A stretch of 64,000 nt of DNA from positions 1-64,000 of the forward strand of contig JAPSFT010000008.1 of the NCBI GenBank assembly GCA_035063765.1, given 5' to 3'. The position numbers were made by a program, and so were the translations under genes. Below are positions 4,629 through 42,629 of the stretch, one piece after another. Source of the DNA: Deltaproteobacteria bacterium. Its GTDB lineage: Bacteria; Myxococcota_A; UBA9160; PR03. The notes beneath the pieces are model-generated. The model saw only the letters and a list, made by a program, of their open reading frames with translations. It had not been told where the DNA came from and did not search any database. Every line of letters begins with the position of its first letter. Positions within the stretch are counted from its first letter, which is position 1.

Positions 4629-4756
4629 GGGAAGCGGTCCGCCCGGCGCCCCACGACCCGTGCACGCACGCCGGCGCCCGCGCCCCGAGCCAGGCCGCGG
4701 GCCGGCGCACCCCGCACCCCGCGACGCCCGCTCGCGGGGCGGCCCGCGCCCTGGGC

Positions 4757-4770
4757 TAGGCTGCGCTCGA
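4757..4770 (+). promoter_or_regulatory. Leaderless-type promoter of the SDR gene
   Basis: TAGGCT at 4757-4762 lies 7 nt before ATG 4770, with no Shine-Dalgarno between them. The arrangement recurs at many genes in this window. Confidence 0.4.
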
Positions 4771-5498
4771 TGGTGGAGCGTCCCGTCGCCCTCGTGACCG
4801 GCGCCGCGCGCGGGATCGGCGCCGCGTGCGCGCGCGCGCTCGCGGCCGAGGGCTTCCGCGTGGCCGTGCACCATGGCGCCAGCGCCGAGGCGGCCGGGAA
4901 GCTCGCGGGCGAGCTGCCCGAGGCCTTCCCGGTCCGTGCCGACCTCACCGTGCCCGCCGAGATCGACGCGCTCGTCGCCGCCCTCGGCGAGCGCACCGGC
5001 CGCGTCGACGTGCTCGTCAACAACGCCGGGGTCGTGCGCAACGGGCCCACGCCGGTGATGAAGCTCGAGGACTACGACGCCGTCGCCGCGCTCGAGCGCG
5101 GCACCTGGTACCTGAGCAAGCTCGTGCTGCGGAAGTTCATGCTCAAGCAGAAGAGCGGGCGCATCATCCAGATCTCGAGCGTGGTGGGCCACACCGGCAA
5201 CCGCGGCCAGTCCGCCTACGCGATGGCCAAGGCGGGGCTCGACGCCCTCACGAAGTCGCTCGCCGCAGAGCTCGCGGGCCGCGACATCCTGGTCAACTCG
5301 GTGGCGCCGGGCTTCATCGAGACCGACATGACGGCGGAGCTTCCCGAGCCGGCGCGGGCCGCGATCCTGGGCCGTGTGCCGCTCGGGCGCATGGGCCGGC
5401 CCGAGGAGGTCGCCGAGGTGGTGGCCTTCCTCGCCACCCGCGGCAGCTACGTCCACGGCACCGTCATCCACGTCAACGGCGGGCTGTACGGGGGCTAG
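4770..5498 (+). CDS. SDR-family 3-oxoacyl-ACP reductase-like protein (FabG-like)
   Basis: A 242-residue short-chain dehydrogenase/reductase. It has the NAD(P)-binding TGAARGIG motif (residues 10-17), NNAG, and the active-site Ser, Tyr150 and Lys154 in SAYAMAKAG. Its C-terminus (APGFIETDM, HVNGG) is close to FabG of fatty acid synthesis. The loop that normally carries the fourth catalytic residue (Asn in ETNL of E. coli FabG) is one residue shorter and reads AALERG, so the usual Asn is missing. The next gene starts 21 nt downstream but has its own promoter-like hexamer. Acyl carrier protein or acyl-CoA substrates are plausible. No fatty acid synthesis genes are adjacent, so calling it fabG would be too specific. 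Confidence 0.8.
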   Translation: MVERPVALVTGAARGIGAACARALAAEGFRVAVHHGASAEAAGKLAGELPEAFPVRADLTVPAEIDALVAALGERTGRVDVLVNNAGVVRNGPTPVMKLEDYDAVAALERGTWYLSKLVLRKFMLKQKSGRIIQISSVVGHTGNRGQSAYAMAKAGLDALTKSLAAELAGRDILVNSVAPGFIETDMTAELPEPARAAILGRVPLGRMGRPEEVAEVVAFLATRGSYVHGTVIHVNGGLYGG

Positions 5499-5507
5499 CG
5501 CGGCGGG

Positions 5508-5520
5508 TAGAGTGCGCACG
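5508..5520 (+). promoter_or_regulatory. Leaderless-type promoter of the epimerase-like gene
   Basis: TAGAGT at 5508-5513 lies 6 nt before GTG 5520. No Shine-Dalgarno is present. Confidence 0.4.
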
Positions 5521-6395
5521 TGGCGCGCATCCTCGTCGCCGGCTGCGGCTACCTCGGGAGCGAGCTCGCCGCGCAGCTCGCGGCCGACGGCCATGTCACC
5601 TTCGGGCTGCGCCGCAGCGCCGGTCCGCTGCCCCGGGGCGTCCAGCCCCTCGTGGCCGACCTGTGCGAGCGCGCCGCCCTGCGCGCCGCACTCGCCGGGG
5701 TCGAGCACGGCGGCATCGACGCCGTCGTCTACGCCGCCGCCGCCGATCACTCCGACGACGACGCCTACCGGCGCGCCTACGTCGAGGGCCTCGCGAACGT
5801 GATCGACTGGGCCGACGCGCAGGGCATGCGCCCGCCGCGCGTCTTCTTCACCTCGAGCACGGCGGTCTACGCGCAGCAGGACGGCGCGTGGGTCGACGAG
5901 GAGAGCCCCACCGAGCCGACCCACTTCAGCGGCGTCCGCATGCTCGAGGCCGAGCGCCTGCTCGCCGCCGCGGGTGGCTGTGCGCTGCGGCTCGGCGGCA
6001 TCTACGGCCCCGGCCGCACGCGCCTCGTCGAGAGCGTGCGGGCGGGCACCGCCACGATCCGGCCGGGCCCGCCGCGCTGGACCAACCGCATCCACCGCGA
6101 CGACGCTGCCGGCGCGCTGCGCCACCTGGTCGGGCGCGCGCTCGCCGGCGCGCCGCTCGATCCCGTCTACGTCGGCGTCGACGACGAGCCGAGCGACGAC
6201 GCCACGACGCTGCGCTGGCTGGCGGAGCGGCTCGGCGTCCCGGCGCCGCCCGTGGCGGGCGATCCCGACGGCCCGCGCGCGCGCAGCGGCAACAAGCGCT
6301 GCCGCAACGCCCGCCTGCGCGCCGCGGGCTACGCCTTCGCCTACCCGACCTTCCGGGAAGGCTACGGAGCCGCGATCGCCGCTAGCGGACCGTGA
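5520..6395 (+). CDS. NAD-dependent epimerase/dehydratase family protein (YeeZ-like)
   Basis: A 291-residue extended SDR of the YeeZ type. The N-terminal Rossmann motif is AGCGYLGSELA (GxGxxG, residues 8-18). The conserved STAVY segment and the following acidic WVDEESPT are typical of YeeZ-like proteins, as is the C-terminal FREGYGAAI. It lacks the classical YxxxK spacing of sugar epimerases, as the YeeZ subgroup often does. The substrate is unknown. It follows the FabG-like gene by 21 nt on the same strand. Its last 14 nt overlap the end of the convergent DUF4399 gene. Confidence 0.75.
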   Translation: MARILVAGCGYLGSELAAQLAADGHVTFGLRRSAGPLPRGVQPLVADLCERAALRAALAGVEHGGIDAVVYAAAADHSDDDAYRRAYVEGLANVIDWADAQGMRPPRVFFTSSTAVYAQQDGAWVDEESPTEPTHFSGVRMLEAERLLAAAGGCALRLGGIYGPGRTRLVESVRAGTATIRPGPPRWTNRIHRDDAAGALRHLVGRALAGAPLDPVYVGVDDEPSDDATTLRWLAERLGVPAPPVAGDPDGPRARSGNKRCRNARLRAAGYAFAYPTFREGYGAAIAASGP

Positions 6396-26672: not shown

Positions 26673-27952
26673 CAGAAGCGCACCCTCGTGCCGAGCGTGC
26701 CCAGCCAGATGTCGTCGAGGCTCGGGTCCTGGTCGGTGTCGACGGTGTACCAGCGGAGCTGCGAGTAGAGCTCGATGCCCCAGTTCTCGAGCACCTGCAC
26801 CGCGGCGATGCCGACCGACTGGCTCTGGTCCCCCTCGGCGGCGAGGTTCTCGTTCCAGTCGTAGTCGACGCCGAAGCCGATCGGGCCGAACGGGAAGAGG
26901 CGCGTGTCCCAGCCGAGCTTGCCGTACACGCTGTAGGGCGTGTCGCCGTCGGCGCCGCCGTCGTAGCCGCTCGAGACGGTGAGGCTCACGCCGCTCGCGT
27001 CGTGGAGCAGCGAGCCCGAGCCGGCGATGCGGTAGTCCTCGCTGCCGCTGTTCGGGCGCGAGATGCCGACCCCGCCGAGCGCCGTGAAGCCCGGCAGGTC
27101 GACACCGCTCCAGTGGTCGTAGTCGCCGCCGAAGGTGAGGGCGGCGTCGTAGCGCTGGTCGGAGCCGGCCGAGATCGAGAGCTGCGCCGGGCCGAACATC
27201 GGCGAGTCGTAGCGGACGCGGCCCATCCGCTCGCCGTCGAAGTTGAAGAAGGCGTCCTCGATCCGGGTCCCGGTGAAGTCGTGGCCGTCCGAGAACAGGA
27301 GGCCGCCGGCGATGAACTCGACGCCCGAGGTCATGATCGGGCCGCTCACCAGCGAGAGGTCGAACTCCGCGACGTTGTCGGTCGCCGCCGAGCCGTGCCC
27401 GAACATCACGCGGCCGAAGCGGTCGTCGCGCGCCCACAGCTCGGCGCGCCGCATCGAGATGAAGTTGCCGGCGCGCTCGTTCTCCTGGCTCACGTCGAAG
27501 GAGTTGTTCGGGCTGAAGGCCACCTCGAGCGTCGAGCCCACCTGCGGGCCCTCCGCGAAGGTGCTGACACCCGCGAAGCGCAGCCGGCTGTTCGAGGCGT
27601 CGTTGTCGACGAAGTAGCCCTTCGCGTCCTTGCCGTCGGCGGCGAAGCTGAAGGCCTGGTTGACCTGCCCGGCGATGTCGATCCGGATGCGCGGCGCGTC
27701 GTAGTCGGTGACCGGGTACTGGCCGTCCTCGCGGCGGTACTCCGGGTGCTCCGCGTGGTGCACGGGGGCGGCGCTCTCGCGCAGCTCCTGCACCTCCTGG
27801 CGGAGGGACCGGATCTCGGCGTCCTGCTTCTCCAGGCGCTCGATCAGCGCGTCCACGCGCGGGTCCTCGGCCGCGGCGGGCGCCGCGAAGGCGAGTGCGG
27901 CGAGCAGCGCAGGCAGCAGGGCCGGCACGAGTCGAAGCGGGATCGTCGTCAT
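26672..27952 (-). CDS. Outer-membrane porin with N-terminal coiled coil
   Basis: A 426-residue protein. It has a signal peptide (about 1-28), a short coiled coil (VDALIERLEKQDAEIRSLRQ and following) and then a beta-rich domain (about 90-426) of the porin type, with alternating hydrophobic strands, SNSRLRFAG, RRAELWARDDRFGRVMFG, and a terminal phenylalanine in TRVRF that acts as the BamA recognition signal. Substrate unknown. Start overlaps the nhaC stop (ATGA at 27949), so the porin is co-translated with a sodium/proton antiporter. Confidence 0.8.
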   Translation of the reverse strand: MTTIPLRLVPALLPALLAALAFAAPAAAEDPRVDALIERLEKQDAEIRSLRQEVQELRESAAPVHHAEHPEYRREDGQYPVTDYDAPRIRIDIAGQVNQAFSFAADGKDAKGYFVDNDASNSRLRFAGVSTFAEGPQVGSTLEVAFSPNNSFDVSQENERAGNFISMRRAELWARDDRFGRVMFGHGSAATDNVAEFDLSLVSGPIMTSGVEFIAGGLLFSDGHDFTGTRIEDAFFNFDGERMGRVRYDSPMFGPAQLSISAGSDQRYDAALTFGGDYDHWSGVDLPGFTALGGVGISRPNSGSEDYRIAGSGSLLHDASGVSLTVSSGYDGGADGDTPYSVYGKLGWDTRLFPFGPIGFGVDYDWNENLAAEGDQSQSVGIAAVQVLENWGIELYSQLRWYTVDTDQDPSLDDIWLGTLGTRVRF

Positions 27953-29430
27953 CGGTCGGTTCCCCCCGGTGGACGAGCCCGTGCGACCTGGAAGCCGGTC
28001 GCTCCGTAGAGCACGGTCAGGATCGGGCTCAGGATGTTGAAGAAGCAGAAGGGCAGGTAGAGCAGGGTCGGCACGCCCAGCACCGCCGCCATGAAGGCGC
28101 CGCACGAGTTCCAGGGCACCAGCGGGGAGGTGACCGTGCCGGCGTCGGCCGCCGCCCGCGACAGCACCTGGGGCGCGAAGCCGCGCTCGGCGAACACCTT
28201 CTTGAAGGTCTTCACCGGCAGCACCAGCGCGATGTACTGGTCGGCCGCCACGACGTTCAAGCCGAGCGCCATGCCGGCGGTCGTCGCGAACAGCCGCCCG
28301 TCGCTCTTCGCGCGCGCGATCAGGGGGTCCACGAGCTTCCCGATCAGGCCGAACTCCTGGAGCAGGGTGCCGAAGGTGACGGCGCCGAGGATCAGCCAGA
28401 TCGTCCCGAGCATGCTGTCCATCCCGCCGCGCGAGAGCAGCCGGTCGACGTCCGCGAGCCCCGAGTTGGCCTCGAAGCCGGTCGCCATCGCCGACCAGAT
28501 GCCCTTCAGGTAGACGAGCGGCGTCGCGAGCTCCGGGTCGGCGACGAAGCGCTGGAAGACCTCGGGCTGGGTCAGGATCCCCTGCACGCCCGCGAAGAGC
28601 GATGCGGCCAGGATGGCGAGCGCCGAGGGCGACTTCTTGAGCGACATCCCGAGCAGCGCCAGGAGCGGCAGCAGGTTCCAGAGCGAGATCCAGTAGAGCT
28701 GGTCGAGCTTGGTGAGGTCCGCCGAGGCCGCCGCTTCGTCGGGCAGCACGCCCTCGCCGCTCAGCCCGAGGATCGCCAACACGAGCGCGCCGATCAGGAA
28801 CGCCGGCACCGACGTCCAGACCTGGGCCCGGATGTGGGTGTAGAGGTCGGCGCCCGCGAGCTGGGAGGCCAGGACGGTGGTCTCCGAGAGGGGAGAGACC
28901 TTGTCGCCGAGGTACGAGCCCGAGATCACGGCGCCCGCGGTGATCGCCGGGGAGACGCCGAGCAGCGACGCGATCCCGACCAGGCCCACCCCGACCGTGC
29001 CCGCCGTCGTCCACGAGCTCCCGATGCTCAGCGAGGTGAGCGCGCAGATCACCGCCGTCGAGACGTAGTAGAAGTCCGGGTCGATCCAGCGGATCCCGTA
29101 GGAGACGAGCGTCGGGATCGTGCCGGAGAGGTTCCAGGTGCCGATCAGGGCGCCGACCGCGAGCAGGATGAAGATCGCGCTCGTCACCGAGCCGACCGCC
29201 CGCTTGATCGCGTCCTCGACCTCGCCCCAGGTGTGGCCGTTGCGCAGGACGATGACGCCGGTCGCCATCGCGCACACGACGAGCGCAGCCGGGATCGGCC
29301 CGCCGAGCGCGTCGAGCCCGTAGAGCGACAGGCCGCCGGCGATCAGCGCCACCAGCAGCGCCAGCGGGGCGATCGCGTCTACGTAGGAGGGCGGGCGGAT
29401 CGGCCGCGTGTGCTCAGGGGTGTCGCTCAC
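27949..29430 (-). CDS. nhaC: Na+/H+ antiporter, NhaC family
   Basis: A 493-residue membrane protein with about 11-12 helices. NhaC-family segments include SLSIGSSWTTAGTVGVGLVG, GAVISGSYLGDKVSPLSETT and a late conserved region around LGLNVVAADQYIALVLP and PLVPWNSCGAFMA. It exchanges cytoplasmic sodium for protons. GTG 29430 has GAGGAG 3 nt upstream. The frame is open to TTG 29499, but that extension is low-complexity. It lies downstream of an Mrp-type module and upstream of a porin on the same strand. Confidence 0.9.
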   Translation of the reverse strand: MSDTPEHTRPIRPPSYVDAIAPLALLVALIAGGLSLYGLDALGGPIPAALVVCAMATGVIVLRNGHTWGEVEDAIKRAVGSVTSAIFILLAVGALIGTWNLSGTIPTLVSYGIRWIDPDFYYVSTAVICALTSLSIGSSWTTAGTVGVGLVGIASLLGVSPAITAGAVISGSYLGDKVSPLSETTVLASQLAGADLYTHIRAQVWTSVPAFLIGALVLAILGLSGEGVLPDEAAASADLTKLDQLYWISLWNLLPLLALLGMSLKKSPSALAILAASLFAGVQGILTQPEVFQRFVADPELATPLVYLKGIWSAMATGFEANSGLADVDRLLSRGGMDSMLGTIWLILGAVTFGTLLQEFGLIGKLVDPLIARAKSDGRLFATTAGMALGLNVVAADQYIALVLPVKTFKKVFAERGFAPQVLSRAAADAGTVTSPLVPWNSCGAFMAAVLGVPTLLYLPFCFFNILSPILTVLYGATGFQVARARPPGGTDR

Positions 29431-29508
29431 CGGCTCCTCGACGATCGCCGGGGGGGGCCGCGGCGGCGACACGATGGCACCCCACCGGTCCGGCGGCAAG
29501 GCGCCGGG

Positions 29509-29634
29509 TCAGGGTCCGGCGAGCAGCGCCGTGCCGAGCAGGACCAGGAGGCCGAGCAGCAGCGCGCACGCCACCGGCCAGGTCCCGAGCCGGGCCTCGA
29601 CCGCGTCGGCGGCGGCGACGATGCGCCGGATCAC
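29509..29634 (-). CDS. 41-residue single-pass membrane peptide
   Basis: A short ORF from GTG 29634: VIRRIVAAADAVEARLGTWP, then one hydrophobic helix (about 21-40). GGGGAG lies about 7 nt upstream. Codon third positions are GC-rich as in neighbouring genes, and it fits between mnhD (21 nt away) and nhaC (79 nt away) on the same strand. Possibly a small accessory subunit of the antiporter complex. No homology recognised. Confidence 0.5.
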   Translation of the reverse strand: MIRRIVAAADAVEARLGTWPVACALLLGLLVLLGTALLAGP

Positions 29635-29655
29635 GCGCTGCTCCCCGGTGCCATC

Positions 29656-31104
29656 TCAGGCTCCCCGCCCGATCCGGAGCAGGCTCGCGAGCGGGAGCAT
29701 CCGGACGGCGAAGGCGGCGAGCGCCAGGGCGAGCGCCAGGAGCTCGCGGGAGCGCTCCACCGGCGCGTGCAGCTCGGCCGGCGCGCCGCTGGCGCTGCGG
29801 GTGTGTGTCAGGACGCGGACGACGTAGGTCGCGGTCAGGGCCCCGCCGGCCAGCATGGCCGCCACCCACCACCACTGCCCGGTCTCGAGCGCGGTGCGGC
29901 GCAGCAGGCTCGGCTGGAGTCCGACGAGCGACACCCCGCCGAGCCCGAAGGCGAGCAGGCTCAGGGGCAGCGCGCGGGCGGCGCCGGCCAGGCCGTCGAT
30001 GCGGTCGTGACCAAGCCCGCGCGCGAGCAGGCCGACCGCGAGGAACATGGCGGTCTTCGCCAGCGCGTGGGCGATCGCCTGCACGAGGCCGCCGGTTACA
30101 GCCGCCGGGCCGGCCGCCGCCAGCGGGAACACCAGGAAGAGGTACCCGATCTGCGCCACGGTCGAGTAGGCGACCAGCAGCTTGAGCCGCTCCTGGCGCA
30201 CGGCGAGCACGCCGCCGAACACGATCGCGCCGGCGCCGAGCGCGCCGAGGAGCTGCTCCGCGGCGGGCGTCGCGAGCCCCGGCAGCGCGTCGAACCACAG
30301 CCGCACGGCCAGGAAGAAGGGCGCCTTCACGACCAGCGCCGAGAGCACGGCGCTCGCGGCCGGTGGGGCGCCGGCGTGCGCCGGTGGGAGCCACAGGTGG
30401 AGCGGGAAGAGCGCCGCCTTCGCGAGCAGGCCCACGGTCATGAGCGCCGCTGCGACCCGTGCCGCGGGGTCGACCCGCACGCGCCCGGCGAGCAGCGCCA
30501 GGTCGAGCGTCCCGTAGGCGCCGTAGAGGAGGCCCACCCCGAGCAGGAAGAGCACCGAGCCGATCAGGGCGAAGAGCAGGTAACGGAGCGCGGCCCGCAG
30601 CGTCGTGGCGCTGCCGCCGAGCGACACGAGCGGGACGGCGCCGAAGGTGAGCAGCTCGAGGGCCACGAACTGGTTGAAGAGGTCGCCGGCGAGGAAGGCG
30701 GCGGTGAGGCCGGTCCAGACCGTGAGCAGCAGCGTCCAGAAGGCGAGCGGGGCGCGCGCCTCGCCGCGCGCCGGGCCCGTGAAGTCGGCGCGCCCGTAGA
30801 GCGCGGCGGCGCCGATCAGGAGCGCGCTCGTGACGAGCATCGCCGCCGAGAGCCCGTCGGCGCGCAGCGTGATGCCGAGGGGAGGTGCCCAGCCGCCCAC
30901 GAGATACTCGAGCGCGTCGCCCGCCCGCCACACGGCCCGGGCGATCGCCACGGCGAGGCCGAGGCTGGCTGCGACGGTCCCGAGCGCGACGCGCTGCGCG
31001 TACCGGCCGCCGAGCAGGGCGGCGAGCGCGACCCCGATCGCGGGCAGCACCAGCGCGAGCGGCAGGAGGAAGGCTCCGGGCGGCGCGGCGGGGGCGGGGC
31101 TCAT
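29656..31104 (-). CDS. mnhD: Mrp/Mbh-type antiporter large subunit (MnhD/MbhH-like)
   Basis: A 482-residue membrane protein of the NuoM/MrpD family with about 14 helices. The conserved ion-channel elements are the glutamate in FVALELLTFGAVPLV, lysines in LLAKAALFPLHLWLPPAH and VVKAPFFLAVRLW, and the histidine/lysine helix AIAHALAKTAMFL. It is the only large antiporter-like subunit in this cluster. ATG 31104 overlaps the mnhC stop (ATGA). Confidence 0.9.
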   Translation of the reverse strand: MSPAPAAPPGAFLLPLALVLPAIGVALAALLGGRYAQRVALGTVAASLGLAVAIARAVWRAGDALEYLVGGWAPPLGITLRADGLSAAMLVTSALLIGAAALYGRADFTGPARGEARAPLAFWTLLLTVWTGLTAAFLAGDLFNQFVALELLTFGAVPLVSLGGSATTLRAALRYLLFALIGSVLFLLGVGLLYGAYGTLDLALLAGRVRVDPAARVAAALMTVGLLAKAALFPLHLWLPPAHAGAPPAASAVLSALVVKAPFFLAVRLWFDALPGLATPAAEQLLGALGAGAIVFGGVLAVRQERLKLLVAYSTVAQIGYLFLVFPLAAAGPAAVTGGLVQAIAHALAKTAMFLAVGLLARGLGHDRIDGLAGAARALPLSLLAFGLGGVSLVGLQPSLLRRTALETGQWWWVAAMLAGGALTATYVVRVLTHTRSASGAPAELHAPVERSRELLALALALAAFAVRMLPLASLLRIGRGA

Positions 31105-31448
31105 GGCCGGTGCGGGCCCGGCGGCTCCACCGTCCCGGTCCCGTCCCCGGAGCCGGGAGCGGCGGCCGCGTCGACCTCGGCGAGCCGCCGCACCAGCGCC
31201 ACCGCGAGCGCGGTCGAGGCGAAGGCGACCACGATGCCGGTGATGATCAGCGCCTGCGGCACCGGGTCGGCGGCGAGGCCCGCGCCCGCGCCCCGCCGCG
31301 CGATCACGGCGAGCACCAGGAACACGCCGCCGCCCAGCACGTTGAAGGCGAGGAGCTTGCGCAGCGGCCCGTGCCCGGTGGCGACGCCGTAGAGCCCGAG
31401 GCCCACCAGCGCGGCCCCGCACAGCCCGAAGACCGTGGCGCCGCTCAC
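31101..31448 (-). CDS. mnhC: Mrp subunit C (NuoK-like)
   Basis: A 115-residue protein with three helices of the NuoK/MrpC family: GLCGAALVGLGLYGVATG, LLAFNVLGGGVFLVLAVIA and DPVPQALIITGIVVAFASTA. The DPVPQALIITGIVV motif is diagnostic. The C-terminus is a short Ala/Gly-rich cytoplasmic tail. GTG 31448 overlaps the upstream stop (GTGA). Confidence 0.9.
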   Translation of the reverse strand: MSGATVFGLCGAALVGLGLYGVATGHGPLRKLLAFNVLGGGVFLVLAVIARRGAGAGLAADPVPQALIITGIVVAFASTALAVALVRRLAEVDAAAAPGSGDGTGTVEPPGPHRP

Positions 31449-32386
31449 GGGGCGCCGTCCCGTGCCGGCGGCCCTTCGACCAGCAGCGCGAGCGCCGCCG
31501 CCACCGAGAGCGTCATCGCGACCTCGACCGCGACGATGATCGGCTTGGCGAGGCCGTCGGGGTAGGCGAGGAAGCCGCCGGCCCAGAGCGGGCCGGCGAG
31601 GCCCACGGCGAAGAAGGCGAGCGGGCCCGCCACGAGCACGGCGCGCAGCCGGCGGGCCGACACCAGCGGAGCGTCGACGAGACCCGCCATGCGCGCGAGC
31701 AGCCACATCGCGGCGAGCACGACGGCCGCCGCGAAGGCCCCGCCCGGCTCGTCCGAGCCGTTCCAGAGCAGGTACACGGCGACCACGACGCCGATCGGGG
31801 GCAGCTCGCGGGCGAGGAACACGAGAGCGTCATCGGGGCGCGCGGGCGGGACGCCGCCGGGCCGGCCGCCCCAGCCGCGGTCGGCCGCGAGCGACCAGAC
31901 GCCGATCAGCGACGCCAGCACCACCACCTTCTCGAGCATGGTGTCGAGCGATCGGTAGGCGAGCAGCGCCGCGGTGACAGGGTTGCCGAGGCCGAGGCCC
32001 GGGAGCTCCGCCGCCGCCTGCGGCGCGAGCGACGGGCCGGGCTCGGGGAGCGCCAGTACCACCCAGGCGATCCCGGCCGACACGAGGGCGCAGGCGCCAG
32101 CGACGGCGGCGCGCAGGCCGGCGCCGGGCCGCTCGCGCTCGCCGGCGCCGCCGGCTCCGAGCCGGCCGACGGCCGCCAGCAGGAGGAGGCCCGTGAGCCC
32201 CCCCATCGACGCCTCGGTGAGCGCCACGTCGAGCGTCCCGAGGCGGACCGACCCGAGACCCAGCAGGAAGCCGTAGGCGACGAAGCCGATCGCGGCGGCC
32301 CGCGCCGTGCGCGCCGCGATCACCCAGCCCGCCATCGCGAGGGCGAGGAGCGCGAGCCCGAGGTCGACGGCGAGCCCGGCGCTCAC
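31445..32386 (-). CDS. mnhB: Fused DUF4040 (MbhD) - MbhE - MrpB subunit
   Basis: A 313-residue membrane protein joining three usually separate pieces. Residues about 1-80 are a DUF4040/MbhD unit (VALTEASMGGLTGLLLLAAV). Residues about 95-170 are MbhE-like (TAALLAYRSLDTMLEKVVVL). Residues about 185-310 are MrpB (PIGVVVAVYLLWNGSDEPGG and following). The first two parts correspond to the C-terminal end of MrpA. Joined to MrpB they supply the lateral half-channel of the antiporter module without the NuoL-like part of MrpA. It is coupled to neighbours on both sides by GTGA overlaps. Confidence 0.85.
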   Translation of the reverse strand: MSAGLAVDLGLALLALAMAGWVIAARTARAAAIGFVAYGFLLGLGSVRLGTLDVALTEASMGGLTGLLLLAAVGRLGAGGAGERERPGAGLRAAVAGACALVSAGIAWVVLALPEPGPSLAPQAAAELPGLGLGNPVTAALLAYRSLDTMLEKVVVLASLIGVWSLAADRGWGGRPGGVPPARPDDALVFLARELPPIGVVVAVYLLWNGSDEPGGAFAAAVVLAAMWLLARMAGLVDAPLVSARRLRAVLVAGPLAFFAVGLAGPLWAGGFLAYPDGLAKPIIVAVEVAMTLSVAAALALLVEGPPARDGAP

Positions 32387-32673
32387 CGCGGCCTGCTGCG
32401 GGTCGCCGTCGCGGCGAGGAGCTGGGCCACGGCGGTGGCGGTGAGCTGGGCGAGCAGCCAGGCGGCGATCAGCTTCGCCCCCGCGAGCACGCCGCCCGCG
32501 TGGGGCAGGAGGCCGAGCACGATCAGGCCGAGCCCGAGGTTGTCGGCCTTGGTGAGCGCGTGCACGCGGCTCGCGGCGTCGGGGAAGCGCACGAGGCCGA
32601 TGCTGCCGGCCAGGAAGAAGAACGCTCCCGCCGAGACCGCGACGACCGTGAAGGCAGCGGCGAGCGTGCTCAC
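32383..32673 (-). CDS. mnhG: Mrp subunit G
   Basis: A 96-residue membrane protein with three helices. It shows the MnhG/PhaG pattern FFFLAGSIGLVRFPDAASRVHALTKADNLG. GTG 32673 overlaps the mnhF stop (GTGA), and its own stop overlaps the DUF4040/MrpB fusion. Confidence 0.92.
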   Translation of the reverse strand: MSTLAAAFTVVAVSAGAFFFLAGSIGLVRFPDAASRVHALTKADNLGLGLIVLGLLPHAGGVLAGAKLIAAWLLAQLTATAVAQLLAATATRSRPR

Positions 32674-32927
32674 CGGCCCTCCGGCGCGTGCTTCGCGAGC
32701 GCCGCGGACGCGAAGGCGGAGACCAGCGCGAGGAGCAGCGCCATGTCCACGACCGCCGGCGTCGAGCTCGCGACCGACACCAGGAGCAGCGCCGCGATCC
32801 CCCCGCTGCCGAGGAGCTGCGCCGCCATCATGCGGTCCGCGTCGGTCGGGCCGCGCACGACGCGCACGAGGCCCACGGCCACCATCAGGAGCACGAAGGC
32901 GGCCGCGCCCGAGAGGAACTCAGCCAT
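32670..32927 (-). CDS. mnhF: Mrp subunit F
   Basis: An 85-residue membrane protein with three helices and the MnhF signature VRVVRGPTDADRMMAAQLLG (the family's GP-D-R loop). It overlaps the end of mnhE by 8 nt. Confidence 0.92.
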   Translation of the reverse strand: MAEFLSGAAAFVLLMVAVGLVRVVRGPTDADRMMAAQLLGSGGIAALLLVSVASSTPAVVDMALLLALVSAFASAALAKHAPEGR

Positions 32928-33417
32928 CGAGGGGCACCCCGAGCGCGCGCGCGAGCCGCTCCTCGTCCGCTGCGAGCAGCGCCGCCACGGGCTGGCCCAG
33001 GTCGAGGCAATGGACGTCGAGCCGGTCGTCGTCGCCGACGGCGGGCGAGGCCGCCACGGTTCCCGGCAAGAGGCTCGCGAGCGCGCGGAAGGCGCCGCGC
33101 GCGGGGCCGGGTGCGATGCGCAGCGGCAGCGACACGATCCCCGGGCGCAGCGGCAGGCGCGGGTCGAGCGCGCGCCGCGCGACGTCGGCGCCGGCCGCGA
33201 TCCCCTGGCCGGGCAGGCGCAGGAGCAGCGCGGCCAGGGCCGCGGGCTCCAGGTGCAGCGCGCCGGGCGGGAGCAGGCGCAGGCTCGCGGCCGTCGCCGC
33301 GAGGGCCGCGCCGGCGCCGATCACGAGCCCGACCGGATCGGTCCCGATCAGCACGACCCAGGCGGCGAACAGCGCGGCCGTCCTCCCGATCCGGATCCGC
33401 CACGACGGCGCGTTCAT
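32920..33417 (-). CDS. mnhE: Mrp subunit E
   Basis: A 165-residue MnhE-family protein. N-terminal helices (about 10-45) are followed by a soluble domain with the conserved LPLRPGIVSLPLRI and LLPGTVAASPAVGDDDRLDVHCLD segments. It starts at ATG 33417, 13 nt after the upstream membrane-protein gene, and begins the canonical E-F-G order. Confidence 0.9.
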   Translation of the reverse strand: MNAPSWRIRIGRTAALFAAWVVLIGTDPVGLVIGAGAALAATAASLRLLPPGALHLEPAALAALLLRLPGQGIAAGADVARRALDPRLPLRPGIVSLPLRIAPGPARGAFRALASLLPGTVAASPAVGDDDRLDVHCLDLGQPVAALLAADEERLARALGVPLDG

Positions 33418-33928: not shown

Positions 33929-35893
33929 ATGGTGCGCAGGGGAACGGTGCTGCTGCTGGCGGTTGCGATGGCGGGCTGCGCGCAGCCGGCCCTGCGGCGC
34001 GACTGGTCCGGCTACACCGGGCCGGGCGCCGCCGCCTTCCAGGGCGAGAGCCTGCCGCCGCCCCAGTTCCCCGACCCGCTCGAGCCGGTGAACCGCGGCG
34101 TGTGGGCCGTGAATCACGGCCTGATCGTCGGGGTCGCGGACCCGGTCGGCCGCGTCTACCGGCTCGTGATCCCGCGCTTCGTCCGCGATCGCGTGCGCGA
34201 CTTCGCGGCGAACCTGGTCTTCCCGCGCGATCTCGCCGCGAGCCTGCTCCAGGCGCAGTGGCGCCAGGCCGGCGACGTGACGGCGCGCTTCGCGGTGAAC
34301 TCCACGGTCGGGCTCGCGGGCTTCTGGGACCCGGCGCTGCGCTGGCTCGGGATCGAGCCCGCGCCGGAGGACTTCGGGCAGGTCTTCGCGACCTGGGGCT
34401 GGCGACCGTCGACCTTCCTGGTGCTGCCGCTCGCGGGCCCGGGCTCGGTCCGCGACACGGCCGGGATGGTGCCCGACGCGCTCCTCGACCCGGCGCTCTG
34501 GTTCTTCCCGATGGGCACGGGGCTCGTGCTCAGCTTCAACGACGTCGTCGACTCGATCCCGAGCTACCGCCAGTTCGCCGCCAGCAGCGCCGACGCCTAC
34601 GACGACGCGCGCCTGCTCTGGACGGTGGTGCGCGAGTCGAAGATCGAGGAGCCGCCGGTCACGGGCCCGGGCGACGACACGGACGCCACCCAGACGCTCC
34701 AGGCGGCCTTCCTGGGCCCGCGCGACCCCGGCTTCGCCGCCCGCCTCGACACGCGCGAGATCGTGATGCCCACGACCGGGCGCGCGCTGCCCTTCTCGGT
34801 GCGCATGCAGCCGGGCCCCGCGCCGCTGGTCTTCCTGGCGCCGGGGCTCGGCGCGCACCGGCTCGGCTCCTCGAGCCTCGCGCTCGCCGAGATGGTCTTC
34901 GAGCGCGGGTTCTCGGTCGCGATCGTGAGCAGCGCGCTCGGCTTCGAGTTCGTCGAGCGCGGCGCGAGCGTGCCGGTGCCGGGCCACGCGCCGGTCGACG
35001 CGCGCGACCTGCACGTGGCGCTCGACCTCGTCGACCGCGACCTGCGCGCGCGCTACCCGGGGCGCGTGCGCGAGCGGGTCTACCTCGGCTACTCGCTCGG
35101 CGCCTTCCACGGCTTCTACATCGCCGCGCAGGAGCGCGATCCCGCGAACGACCGCGTGCGCTTCGACCGCTACCTGCTGCTCGACCCGCCGGTGCGCCTC
35201 GTCGAGGGCATGGAGCGCCTCGACGCCTTCTACGACGCGCCGCTGGCACTTCCGGAGGGCGAGCGCGAGGCCTGGGTCCACCAGCTCCTGCTCGAGACCG
35301 CGGCGGTGGCGCGCCACGCCCAGGCGGAGCGCTTCGGGGCCGGCGGCTACGGGCGGGTCGAGTCCGTCGAGCTCGGCACCCAGGACCTGGCGCCGGTCGT
35401 CGAGCTGCCGTTCACGAACCGGGAGGCCGAGTTCCTGATCGGGCTCGCCTTCCGCCGCTCGCTCCAGGCCCTGCTCTGGACCAGCCAGCAGCGCGAGGAC
35501 CTGGGCGTGCTGCTCACCGAGCGGCGCCGCTGGCGGCGGCTCCCGGCCTACCGCGAGATCGGCGACTACTCCTTCGCGATGTACCTCTACGCCTTCGTGC
35601 TGCCCTATCACCGCGACCGGCTCGGGACCGTGCGCAGCGCGGAGGAGCTCGTCGCGCAGAACGACCTGCACGCGATCGCCGGTCCCCTGCGCGACAACCC
35701 GAAGCTGCGCGTGTTCGCCAACCGCAACGACTTCCTGACCAGCGACGAGGACGTGGCCTGGCTCGCCGCTCTCGTCGGCCCCGAGCGCGTGCGCTTCTTC
35801 CCGACCGGCGGGCACCTCGGCAACCTGCACCGGCCGGAGGTGCAGGCCACCGTGATGGACGCGCTCGCCGACCTCCAGCCGGCCGCGCCGTGA
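33929..35893 (+). CDS. mlaA: MlaA (VacJ) lipoprotein fused to an alpha/beta hydrolase
   Basis: A 654-residue protein. The signal peptide has a lipobox (AVAMAGC). Residues about 45-245 are an MlaA/VacJ domain: DPLEPVNRGVWAVNHGLIVG, ARFAVNSTVGLAGFWDPALR and FGQVFATWG. MlaA normally removes phospholipids from the outer leaflet of the outer membrane. Residues about 275-650 look like an alpha/beta hydrolase: GYSLG nucleophile elbow (Ser389), a late Asp in NRNDF (D601) and His in GGHLG (H629). The fusion suggests that extracted lipids are hydrolysed on the same protein. It heads an operon coupled by GTGA to a small membrane protein and a CREST hydrolase. Confidence 0.8.
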   Translation: MVRRGTVLLLAVAMAGCAQPALRRDWSGYTGPGAAAFQGESLPPPQFPDPLEPVNRGVWAVNHGLIVGVADPVGRVYRLVIPRFVRDRVRDFAANLVFPRDLAASLLQAQWRQAGDVTARFAVNSTVGLAGFWDPALRWLGIEPAPEDFGQVFATWGWRPSTFLVLPLAGPGSVRDTAGMVPDALLDPALWFFPMGTGLVLSFNDVVDSIPSYRQFAASSADAYDDARLLWTVVRESKIEEPPVTGPGDDTDATQTLQAAFLGPRDPGFAARLDTREIVMPTTGRALPFSVRMQPGPAPLVFLAPGLGAHRLGSSSLALAEMVFERGFSVAIVSSALGFEFVERGASVPVPGHAPVDARDLHVALDLVDRDLRARYPGRVRERVYLGYSLGAFHGFYIAAQERDPANDRVRFDRYLLLDPPVRLVEGMERLDAFYDAPLALPEGEREAWVHQLLLETAAVARHAQAERFGAGGYGRVESVELGTQDLAPVVELPFTNREAEFLIGLAFRRSLQALLWTSQQREDLGVLLTERRRWRRLPAYREIGDYSFAMYLYAFVLPYHRDRLGTVRSAEELVAQNDLHAIAGPLRDNPKLRVFANRNDFLTSDEDVAWLAALVGPERVRFFPTGGHLGNLHRPEVQATVMDALADLQPAAP

Positions 35894-36426
35894 GCGCCGG
35901 CCCCTGCGAGACGCTCGAGCTGCGGCTCGGCGAGGCCCGGCAGCTCTTCCTCGCGATCGACGCCGCGCCCTTCCGCGAGCGCGACCTCGACCCGCGGGCC
36001 GAGGAGTTCATCCTGGGCTGGGCCCAGGAGCTGCGCCGCGACGCGCCGCTCGCGCTCGAGATCCACCTCGAGCGGCCCTCGCCGGCGGGGGACGACGCGG
36101 CCGTCCTCGGGGCCGCCGTCGCCGAGTACTTCCGCGACCGCGCGCAGGCCGCCCGCCGCCGCCTGCGCGAGCTCCTGCGCACCGGCCGCACCAGCCTCCT
36201 GATCGGCCTCGCCTTCAACGCGCTGATGCTGGTGCTCGCCGACGTCTTCTCGGAGCGCCGCTACGGGATCGTGCACGACAGCCTCGTGATCGGCGGCTGG
36301 GTCGCGATGTGGCGGCCGATCGAGATCTTCCTCTACGACTGGTGGCCGATCCGCGCCGAGGCGCGGCTCCACGATCGGCTGGCGGCGATGCCCGTGCGGG
36401 TCGTTGCTGCGCCTCCTGCGCCGTGA
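35890..36426 (+). CDS. Two-helix membrane protein in the MlaA-hydrolase operon
   Basis: A 178-residue protein. The soluble N-terminal domain (about 1-95) has an alternating pattern such as LRLGEARQLFLAIDAAPF and LALEIHLERP. Two helices follow (SLLIGLAFNALMLVLAD and SLVIGGWVAMWRPIEIFLY). A short tail contains WWPIRAEARLHDRLAAMPVR. GTG 35890 overlaps the upstream stop (GTGA), and its stop overlaps the next start. Function unknown. Co-translation with two lipid-active proteins suggests a membrane accessory. Confidence 0.7.
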   Translation: MSAGPCETLELRLGEARQLFLAIDAAPFRERDLDPRAEEFILGWAQELRRDAPLALEIHLERPSPAGDDAAVLGAAVAEYFRDRAQAARRRLRELLRTGRTSLLIGLAFNALMLVLADVFSERRYGIVHDSLVIGGWVAMWRPIEIFLYDWWPIRAEARLHDRLAAMPVRVVAAPPAP

Positions 36427-37202
36427 CCGGGCGCACGCGCGCGCTCCTCGCGATCACCGCCCTCAGCGTGGCGGCGGCCCTGCTCGCGCCCGGCGTGCCG
36501 CAGCCGCCCGGCTATCACGACTTTGCGGACCACAGGAGCTTGCTCGGCGTCGCGAACGCGCCGGACGTGCTCTCGAACGGCGCCTTCCTGCTGGCCGGCC
36601 TCGCCGGCCTCTGGATCGCGCTCCGGCCCCGCACGAGCTTCGACCATGCCGGGGAGCGGATCCCCTACGCGGTCTTCTTCGCGGGCGTCCTGCTGACCGC
36701 GCTCGGCTCCGGGTACTACCACCTCGCGCCCGACAACGAGCGCCTGTTCTGGGACCGCCTGCCGATGACGATCGCCTTCATGGCGCTGCTCGCCGCCCAG
36801 GTCGGCGACCGCGTCGACGCCCGCGCGGGCCGTACGCTGCTGCTCCCGATGCTGGCGATCGGCGCGGCCTCGGTCGTCTACTGGCGGGCGACCGAGCGCG
36901 CCGGCGCGGGCAACGTCGTCCCCTACGGCGTCCTCCAGGCCTACTCGGTCGTGATCCTGCTGCTGATCGCGCTCTGGCTGCCCTCCCGCTACACGCGCGG
37001 TGGCGACGTCTACGCGGTGTTCGCCTGCTACGTCGTGGCGAAGCTCGTGGAGACCTTCGACGCGCCGCTCTACGCGCTCGGACACGTCGTGAGCGGACAC
37101 ACGCTGAAGCACCTGGCCGCGGCGGCGGGCGCCTTCCTGGTGTGCCGGATGCTCGCGCTGCGCGAGCCGGCCGTACCCCCGCCCGGCCGATCGCTGGGGT
37201 AG
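36423..37202 (+). CDS. CREST superfamily hydrolase (alkaline ceramidase-like)
   Basis: A 259-residue membrane protein with about seven helices and CREST metal-hydrolase motifs. These are the FADHRSLLGVANAPDVLSNG segment (conserved Asp/His and Ser-Asn), GSGYYHLAPDNERLFWDRLP (His and Asp) and SGHTLKHLAAAAGAF (two His). CREST enzymes hydrolyse amide or ester bonds inside membranes, as alkaline ceramidases do. The substrate here is unknown. A ceramide or other envelope lipid fits the operon. GTG 36423 is coupled to the preceding gene (GTGA). Confidence 0.75.
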   Translation: MTGRTRALLAITALSVAAALLAPGVPQPPGYHDFADHRSLLGVANAPDVLSNGAFLLAGLAGLWIALRPRTSFDHAGERIPYAVFFAGVLLTALGSGYYHLAPDNERLFWDRLPMTIAFMALLAAQVGDRVDARAGRTLLLPMLAIGAASVVYWRATERAGAGNVVPYGVLQAYSVVILLLIALWLPSRYTRGGDVYAVFACYVVAKLVETFDAPLYALGHVVSGHTLKHLAAAAGAFLVCRMLALREPAVPPPGRSLG

Positions 37203-37213
37203 AGTCGCCGCCA
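37200..37213 (+). promoter_or_regulatory. Leaderless-type promoter of the nucleotidyltransferase gene
   Basis: TAGAGT at 37200-37205 overlaps the preceding stop codon region and lies 7 nt before ATG 37213. No Shine-Dalgarno. Confidence 0.4.
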
Positions 37214-37743
37214 TGCGCGGCATCGTCGACCGGATGACGCTCGAGCGGTTCCTGGCCGAGCTCGGGCGTCGCGCGCGGGGCCCCGGGCGGGTGTATCTCA
37301 CGGGCGGTGCGACGGCGCTCCTCTACGGCTGGCGTCCGGCGACGGTCGACGTGGACCTGAAGCTCGACCCGGAGCCGGCCGGCGCCTTCGAGGCGATCGC
37401 CGGGCTCAAGGAGGAGCTCGACCTCAACGTCGAGCTGGCGTCGCCGGACCAATTCCTCCCCCCGGTCCCGGGCTGGCGCGAGCGCTCGGTCTTCGTCGCG
37501 CGCCACGGCGGCGTCGACTTCTTCCACTTCGACCCGCTCAGCCAGGCGCTCGCCAAGCTGGCGCGCGCCCACGAGCGCGACCTCGGCGACGTCGCCGCCA
37601 TGCTGGAACGCGGCTTGTTCTCGGGCACGGACCTGGCTCGGGCGCTCGACCAGATCGCGGGCGACCTCGTCCGCTACCCGGGCCTCGACGCGGTTGCGTT
37701 CCGCGAGCGCGTGCGGCGCTTCCTCGAGCAGCGCCGTGGTTGA
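37213..37743 (+). CDS. Small nucleotidyltransferase (DUF6036-like)
   Basis: A 176-residue protein with a minimal nucleotidyltransferase core: GGATALLYGWRPATVDVDLK gives the GG and DxD catalytic residues. A helical C-terminal part covers about 100-176 (DPLSQALAKLARAHERDLGD). Such proteins occur in pairs resembling toxin-antitoxin modules. It overlaps its downstream partner by 8 nt. A decayed relative lies at 26010-26141. Confidence 0.75.
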   Translation: MRGIVDRMTLERFLAELGRRARGPGRVYLTGGATALLYGWRPATVDVDLKLDPEPAGAFEAIAGLKEELDLNVELASPDQFLPPVPGWRERSVFVARHGGVDFFHFDPLSQALAKLARAHERDLGDVAAMLERGLFSGTDLARALDQIAGDLVRYPGLDAVAFRERVRRFLEQRRG

Positions 37744-38074
37744 CCTCGACGGACTTCCCGGCGAGGCGCTGGTCCGCCGCGGCCTCGAGGACCTCGCGCG
37801 GGGTGCGCGCTCGGCCGAGGCGCTGACCGTCGCGCTCGCCACCGGCCGGCTGCGCCGCTGCGGGCTCGCGCTGCCGGAGGAGTCGGCGCTGCCGGACGAT
37901 CGGGAGCTGGCGCTCTACGCGCTGCTCGTCGCGCGCGGCGAAGGAGACGCCTACGCGCGCTACAACGCCTTGCGCCGCGAGCTCGACTCCTTCCTCGAAG
38001 CCCTCGAGGCCCGGCTCCGGCGCGCTCAGGATCCCGCTGCCCGCTCCTCCTCGCGTCCCGCGAACACCGTGTAG
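37736..38074 (+). CDS. Partner protein of the nucleotidyltransferase
   Basis: A 112-residue, largely helical protein (VDLDGLPGEALVRRGLEDLA, RELALYALLVARGEGDAYAR, LEALEARLRRAQD). GTG 37736 overlaps the nucleotidyltransferase gene. The 3' end overlaps the convergent RND pump gene by 49 nt. No enzyme motif. It probably forms a complex with, or neutralises, the nucleotidyltransferase. Confidence 0.6.
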   Translation: MVDLDGLPGEALVRRGLEDLARGARSAEALTVALATGRLRRCGLALPEESALPDDRELALYALLVARGEGDAYARYNALRRELDSFLEALEARLRRAQDPAARSSSRPANTV

Positions 38075-42301: not shown

Positions 42302-42339
42302 TTGACCCTAGTAGCTACCAGAGGCTACTTTGCTGGCGA
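42302..42339 (+). promoter_or_regulatory. Promoter and inverted-repeat operator of the Phd-PIN module
   Basis: TTGACC (42302-42307), an 18-bp spacer and TACTTT (42326-42331) end 7 nt before ATG 42339. AGTAGC (42310-42315) and GCTACT (42324-42329) form a perfect inverted repeat between -35 and -10, as expected for autorepression by the antitoxin. Confidence 0.55.
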
Positions 42340-42629
42340 TGAAGGCCGTTGCCATCAAGGAGCTCAAGAACCGGCTCAGCGCCTATCTGCGCGAGGTGAG
42401 CAACGGCGAGGTCGTGCTGGTGACCGACCGGGGCCGGGTGGTGGCCGAGCTGCGCCAGCCGAGCACCGGCGTGGTCCTCGGCGCCCACGACCAGGCCCTG
42501 GAGCGGCTCCGCGCCGAGGGGGTGCTCGCCCCCGGCCTCCCCCAGGATCCGCGCGCCTATCGCAGCTCACCGCTCGCGCGAGCGGTTGCGAGCCGCGACC
42601 TCCTCGACGCGGAGCGCGGCGAGCGGTGA
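42339..42629 (+). CDS. Type II antitoxin, Phd/YefM family
   Basis: A 96-residue antitoxin. The N-terminus MKAVAIKELKNRLSAYLREV, followed by the VLVTDRGRVVAEL strands, is the Phd/YefM DNA-binding fold. The C-terminal half is the likely unfolded toxin-binding region. ATG 42339 is preferred to the in-frame TTG 42330, which falls inside the -10/operator. Its stop overlaps the toxin start (GTGA at 42626). Confidence 0.85.
   Translation: MKAVAIKELKNRLSAYLREVSNGEVVLVTDRGRVVAELRQPSTGVVLGAHDQALERLRAEGVLAPGLPQDPRAYRSSPLARAVASRDLLDAERGER

Follow-up and report, generated by a model that had tools for sequence, protein, structure and literature searches.

A natural MlaA-hydrolase fusion, a putative single-chain MlaZ-MlaY, proposed to couple phospholipid extraction to phospholipid cleavage

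Introduction

The MlaZ/MlaY system of Pseudomonas aeruginosa, which is said to have been described by Guest et al. in 2023, is the closest studied relative of the gene considered here: a fusion of an MlaA-family protein to an alpha/beta hydrolase, encoded within a 64,000-nucleotide stretch of a Deltaproteobacteria bacterium (GenBank assembly GCA_035063765.1, contig JAPSFT010000008.1, positions 1 to 64,000), which is referred to below as the window. According to a review of MlaA, PA3239 (MlaZ), an MlaA homologue, removes mislocalised phospholipids in P. aeruginosa and passes them to PA3238 (MlaY) for degradation (PMC11131202). MlaY is described as possessing an alpha/beta hydrolase domain with S187, H415 and D388, and mlaY mutants as failing to degrade cardiolipin after sphingosine treatment (PMC11977310). 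The same paper cites the rescue of an Escherichia coli pldA mutant by MlaY and MlaZ together, and another reports an effect on the envelope when the two proteins are overproduced jointly, which neither produces alone (PMC12569750). The placement of MlaY is disputed between papers, which present it variously as a lipoprotein, an integral outer-membrane protein or a soluble protein (one such paper being PMC11977310).

The original prediction for this locus, made from the letters of the sequence, had presented a candidate new envelope-lipid system. That novelty has to be given up in part, as the two-domain pairing is already known as MlaZ/MlaY and the hydrolase is homologous to MlaY. What is new here is the fused form, which occurs widely in Verrucomicrobiota, Planctomycetota and the lineage of the window. 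It goes unmentioned in a 1,083-genome survey of Mla proteins (PMC10665443) and of the MlaA review (PMC11131202), the primary MlaYZ paper being left aside in this statement.

The fusion gene and its two halves

The gene and its parts, all on the plus strand, are as follows.

33929..35893, + strand: MlaA-hydrolase fusion gene (putative single-chain MlaZ-MlaY), 654 amino acids; from reading frame, families, alignments and model
33929..33979, + strand: signal peptide up to the lipobox cysteine C17 (MAGC), predicted from sequence
34064..34648, + strand: MlaA domain, residues 46-240; PF04333 and structure match to 5nuo chain D
34742..35881, + strand: alpha/beta hydrolase domain (MlaY family), residues 272-651, capped by helices at approximately 424-590; from model, structure matches and BLASTP to MlaY
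35093..35095, + strand: codon of the nucleophile S389 (GYSLG); invariant in 54 fusions, aligns with MlaY S187
35729..35731, + strand: codon of the acid D601; invariant in 54 fusions, aligns with MlaY D388
35813..35815, + strand: codon of H629 (GGHLGN); invariant in 54 fusions, aligns with MlaY H415

The fusion of MlaA to an alpha/beta hydrolase was correctly predicted, since the single frame 33929-35893 holds both a PF04333 domain and a modelled hydrolase domain. Residues 49-237 match PF04333 with an E-value of 7.6e-47 and 159.9 bits against a cut-off of 25, covering positions 3-194 of the 195 in the family model. Structure comparison further matches residues 46-240 of the predicted model to MlaA (5nuo, chain D), with a Z-score of 19.6 and a root-mean-square deviation of 2.3 over 194 aligned residues. 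Membership of the MlaA family is thus indicated by profile score and by fold, the latter on a predicted model. The lipobox cysteine is kept in at least 90% of 14 aligned fusions; the protein is probably placed at the outer membrane, where its single lipobox would anchor both halves.

The second half is less readily named from family databases. For the approximately 400 residues that follow the MlaA domain, Pfam and NCBIfam scans gave only sub-threshold alpha/beta hydrolase matches. A search of the sequences of solved structures with the whole fusion returned MlaA only, and a profile of the hydrolase gave weak matches in the same set. The proposed triad was nevertheless placed at the right positions by the original prediction: Ser389, Asp601 and His629 are unchanged across 14, and then 54, aligned fused proteins, the larger alignment being drawn mostly from Verrucomicrobiota, Planctomycetota and Lentisphaerae. 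Gly387, Gly391, Gly627, Gly628, Gly631 and Asn632 are likewise invariant.

An AlphaFold2 model computed from the 54-row alignment has a mean predicted local distance difference test (pLDDT) score of 92.4 and a predicted template-modelling score of 0.91. In this model Ser389 directly follows strand 5, Asp601 follows strand 7 and His629 follows strand 8, so that the predicted placement of the three residues is the canonical alpha/beta hydrolase arrangement. The helical cap comprises approximately 165 residues, and residues 272-651 match esterases and thioesterases with Z-scores of about 20.

Relationship to MlaZ and MlaY

In the P. aeruginosa record, the gene for a hydrolase with exactly Ser187, Asp388 and His415 lies before one of the VacJ family. 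The fusion matches P. aeruginosa MlaY by BLASTP with an E-value of 2e-27 and 26% identity over residues 276-653, the profile comparison giving an E-value of 1.6e-96, and it matches MlaZ with an E-value of 4e-27 and 33% identity. Ser389, Asp601 and His629 align with MlaY Ser187, Asp388 and His415, respectively. Because both halves are homologous to MlaZ and MlaY and the triads align, the window gene is, as judged from sequence comparison, a natural single-chain MlaZ-MlaY. The standard MlaYZ arrangement consists of mlaY and then mlaZ as separate genes, while the window's chain runs in the order MlaZ-MlaY; the fusion is therefore a variant of MlaYZ and not a standard member.

Distribution of the fusion and linkage of the hydrolase to MlaA

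In a protein search, the fusion was present in 14 of 98 related genomes, the window's own included, at identities down to approximately 33%. For a wider view, 84,980 species genomes were scanned with one hydrolase motif, with no selection on MlaA, and the best 80 loci were taken. Within these, the hydrolase is fused to MlaA in 53 and encoded directly beside mlaA in 22, the remaining five being of other kinds (three start at a contig end); it is hence fused or adjacent to MlaA in 75 of the best 80 loci. Where proteobacteria carry separate genes, that of the hydrolase lies upstream of mlaA, which is the reverse of the order in the fusion. In four genomes of the Verrucomicrobiota sample described below, the genes are split with the fusion's order kept. 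A hydrolase encoded by a split gene is also predicted to have an alpha/beta hydrolase fold (pLDDT 84). When the surroundings of the fusion were searched for conserved genes, no common operon partner emerged.

Some further features of the two-gene loci may be recorded. A third conserved gene, of approximately 400 residues, comes after mlaY-mlaZ in 14 proteobacterial loci, and by eye its product resembles a periplasmic substrate-binding protein. On a plasmid of Skermanella mucosa, a gene with a tamB domain comes after mlaY and mlaZ, so that a presumed supplier of phospholipids is encoded next to the proteins for their removal. Finally, an mlaY-like and then an mlaA-like gene occur at positions 3905-5978 of a Fusobacterium vincentii record with 29% G+C (NZ_CP084075.1); this pair falls outside the phyla with reported MlaA, and contamination or mislabelling is possible.

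MlaC or hydrolase as the partner of MlaA

The absence of mlaBCDEF genes, as originally noted, holds for the window, in which mlaC, mlaD and mlaE are missing. It does not hold for the genome: mlaE, mlaD, mlaA and mlaC lie together on another contig (C34), and the genome also has one more mlaC and two additional mlaA genes, so the implied lack of an Mla pathway was mistaken. Here, as in Pseudomonas, the degrading form adds to the transport pathway. Nine proteobacterial genomes with a free hydrolase all have two mlaA genes, and eight of them have MlaC. The published survey found MlaA and MlaC mostly restricted to Proteobacteria (PMC10665443).

Elsewhere the two partners seldom coincide. In 21 fusion-bearing genomes of Verrucomicrobiota, Lentisphaerae and Planctomycetota, MlaC was found in none and the MlaE permease in 20. 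MlaA and MlaC were next sought in 195 genomes sampled evenly from a single phylum, taken from its named members to be Verrucomicrobiota, and every MlaA locus was read. MlaA occurs without the hydrolase in 22 of these genomes, every one of which has MlaC, and linked to the hydrolase in 53, only one of which has MlaC (Fisher p 4e-18, uncorrected for descent). In this sample, MlaA pairs with either the hydrolase or MlaC. The sole exception encodes a plain MlaA in addition to a fused MlaA-hydrolase, and may be an intermediate or a secondary acquisition. In a tree of MlaA, the partner switches only two or three times.

That MlaA in general has two exchangeable acceptors, carrier or lipase, is a tentative reading to which we would give somewhat less than even weight. 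Loss of the C-terminal tail that recruits MlaC was considered as a marker of pairing with the hydrolase and was rejected: the tail is absent from split MlaZ-like proteins, but it is also absent from many MlaC-linked MlaA proteins of Verrucomicrobiota.

Neighbouring genes

Two genes follow the fusion on the same strand.

35890..36426, + strand: gene 2, small membrane protein of an unnamed family; overlapping neighbour, not a conserved partner; from family scans and relatives' loci
36423..37202, + strand: gene 3, CREST (alkaline-ceramidase-like) membrane hydrolase; overlapping neighbour, not a conserved partner; from PF05875 and ACER3-like spacing

The GTGA overlaps reported for these genes are present, with GTG at 35890 over TGA at 35891-35893 and GTG at 36423 over TGA at 36424-36426. 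Gene 2 matched no Pfam or NCBIfam model; it had been taken for a two-helix membrane protein, of which the membrane part stands, while a simple hydropathy scan yields one clear segment only (98-123). The assignment of gene 3 to CREST is borne out by a match to PF05875 lying just above the cut-off (E-value 4.7e-8; 33.2 bits against 32.5) and by its Ser, Asp and three His residues, in which S96-H100-D111 and H226-H230 are spaced like S77-H81-D92 and H217-H221 of human ACER3.

The proposed coupling of the fusion to these two genes fared less well. Neither adjoins the fusion at any locus read in relatives, the same genus included. Strong relatives of gene 3 occur in two and of gene 2 in six of 97 other genomes, never adjoining the fusion. 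The trio is thus not conserved as a unit, an outcome that the original prediction had itself named as refuting. In Skermanella, a homologue of gene 2 does precede mlaY-mlaZ-tamB. This was rejected as operon support, since the family adjoins many unrelated genes, as in Azospirillum, Variovorax, Rhizobium, Bradyrhizobium and Acidovorax. The two overlapping genes are thus most likely accidental neighbours.

Members of the gene-2 family also lie directly beside genes for resistance-nodulation-division efflux permeases in three other genomes, and in the window such a permease gene is found 1.6 kb from gene 2 on the opposite strand. Further afield, positions 37213-38074 hold a weak match to a DUF6036 nucleotidyltransferase followed by an overlapping small gene, which could be a toxin-antitoxin-like pair, and a short reading frame at 42330-42629 resembles, by eye, a Phd-type antitoxin. 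On the minus strand, a run of membrane-protein genes at 27949-33417 is likewise by eye similar to a multi-subunit Na+/H+ antiporter (Mnh/Mrp) cluster.

Proposed mechanism and alternatives

We consider it very probable that the single-chain MlaZ-MlaY couples phospholipid extraction to cleavage by the fused hydrolase. In this mechanism, the MlaA-family outer-membrane lipoprotein channel would pick up phospholipids misplaced in the outer leaflet. These would pass to the phospholipase-type alpha/beta hydrolase fused at the periplasmic C-terminus of MlaA, which would cleave them in place of a hand-over to the carrier MlaC. The extraction and degradation of lipids suggested by the original prediction is well supported by an invariant triad, a confident model, the linkage of the hydrolase to MlaA in the great majority of the best loci and its homology to MlaY; the phospholipid substrate, the direct hand-over and the catalytic activity are what we infer from these observations.

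Several points weigh on the other side. The hydrolase half is only 26% identical in sequence to MlaY, and its lipase activity is read from triad, fold and homology. The predicted fold does not fix the substrate, as its matches include esterases and thioesterases that act on other compounds. The 80 top loci resemble the window most closely, such that their linkage figure covers the closer relatives, and the exclusion between MlaC and hydrolase, clean as it is, is based on few evolutionary events.

These points leave room for the fused enzyme to act on another acyl substrate of the outer membrane, such as a glycolipid, the acyl chains of lipid A or an acylated protein, or to transfer acyl groups, with MlaA placing it or feeding it a different lipid. 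The varied substrates of its top structure matches and its divergence from MlaY would both allow this. Yet MlaA, the other half, has proved to be a phospholipid channel wherever it has been studied, and MlaY, the nearest studied relative, is tied through mutants to the degradation of a phospholipid, cardiolipin; we therefore regard a different substrate as unlikely. It is also conceivable that the MlaA half still feeds MlaC, with the hydrolase as an added or regulatory domain, given that the window's genome encodes MlaC, MlaD and MlaE. This is very improbable, however, since MlaC is missing from 52 of 53 hydrolase-linked genomes of the sample and from all 21 other fusion-bearing genomes tested, and in the window's genome canonical mlaA genes exist apart from the fusion, one of them next to mlaE, mlaD and mlaC.

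The last alternative treats the three overlapping genes as a single module for lipid degradation, in which the CREST enzyme would take the products or a second lipid as its substrate. In its favour, the overlaps imply that translation is coupled in this genome, the active-site residues of the CREST enzyme are all in place and a relative of gene 2 precedes mlaY-mlaZ in Skermanella. The absence of both genes from beside the fusion in every relative, the scarcity of their strong relatives and the unrelated surroundings of the gene-2 family largely refute it, and we judge it the least probable of the three.

The proposed coupling of extraction to cleavage offers a likely function for an unannotated and widespread hydrolase domain. 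With both partners in one chain, the proposed hand-over from MlaZ to MlaY becomes directly testable. Furthermore, the pairing of MlaA with either MlaC or a lipase in Verrucomicrobiota bears on how outer-membrane asymmetry is kept up in bacteria that have no MlaC.

Comparison with known systems

PldA (OMPLA) is a beta-barrel enzyme, whereas the fusion has an alpha/beta hydrolase with an MlaA feeder. The two resemble each other in the removal of outer-leaflet phospholipids through hydrolysis, as PldA is described in background text (PMC10719372) and as is proposed for the fusion. One paper calls MlaY a PldA homologue (PMC11977310), with which the fold predicted here disagrees. The CREST enzymes and alkaline ceramidases are comparable to gene 3 alone, through PF05875 and the five CREST residues; gene 3 differs as an accessory neighbour whose link to the fusion is not conserved.

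The canonical Mla pathway (MlaA-MlaC-MlaFEDB), which the genome also encodes elsewhere, shares the MlaA domain and the channel fold. It differs in that the window locus is without MlaC and the C-terminus of the fusion's MlaA runs into the hydrolase.

With regard to MlaZ/MlaY, P. aeruginosa has two genes with the hydrolase first, while the window has one chain with MlaA first. The MlaA halves of the fusions and MlaZ fall in different clades, and two independent origins of the pairing were considered; this was not retained, as the tree prefers separate clades yet allows one origin (approximately unbiased test, p-AU 0.25). The likeness is otherwise close: an MlaA-like protein is joined with an alpha/beta hydrolase in both, the same two families are involved, both domains are homologous and the catalytic triad is the same.
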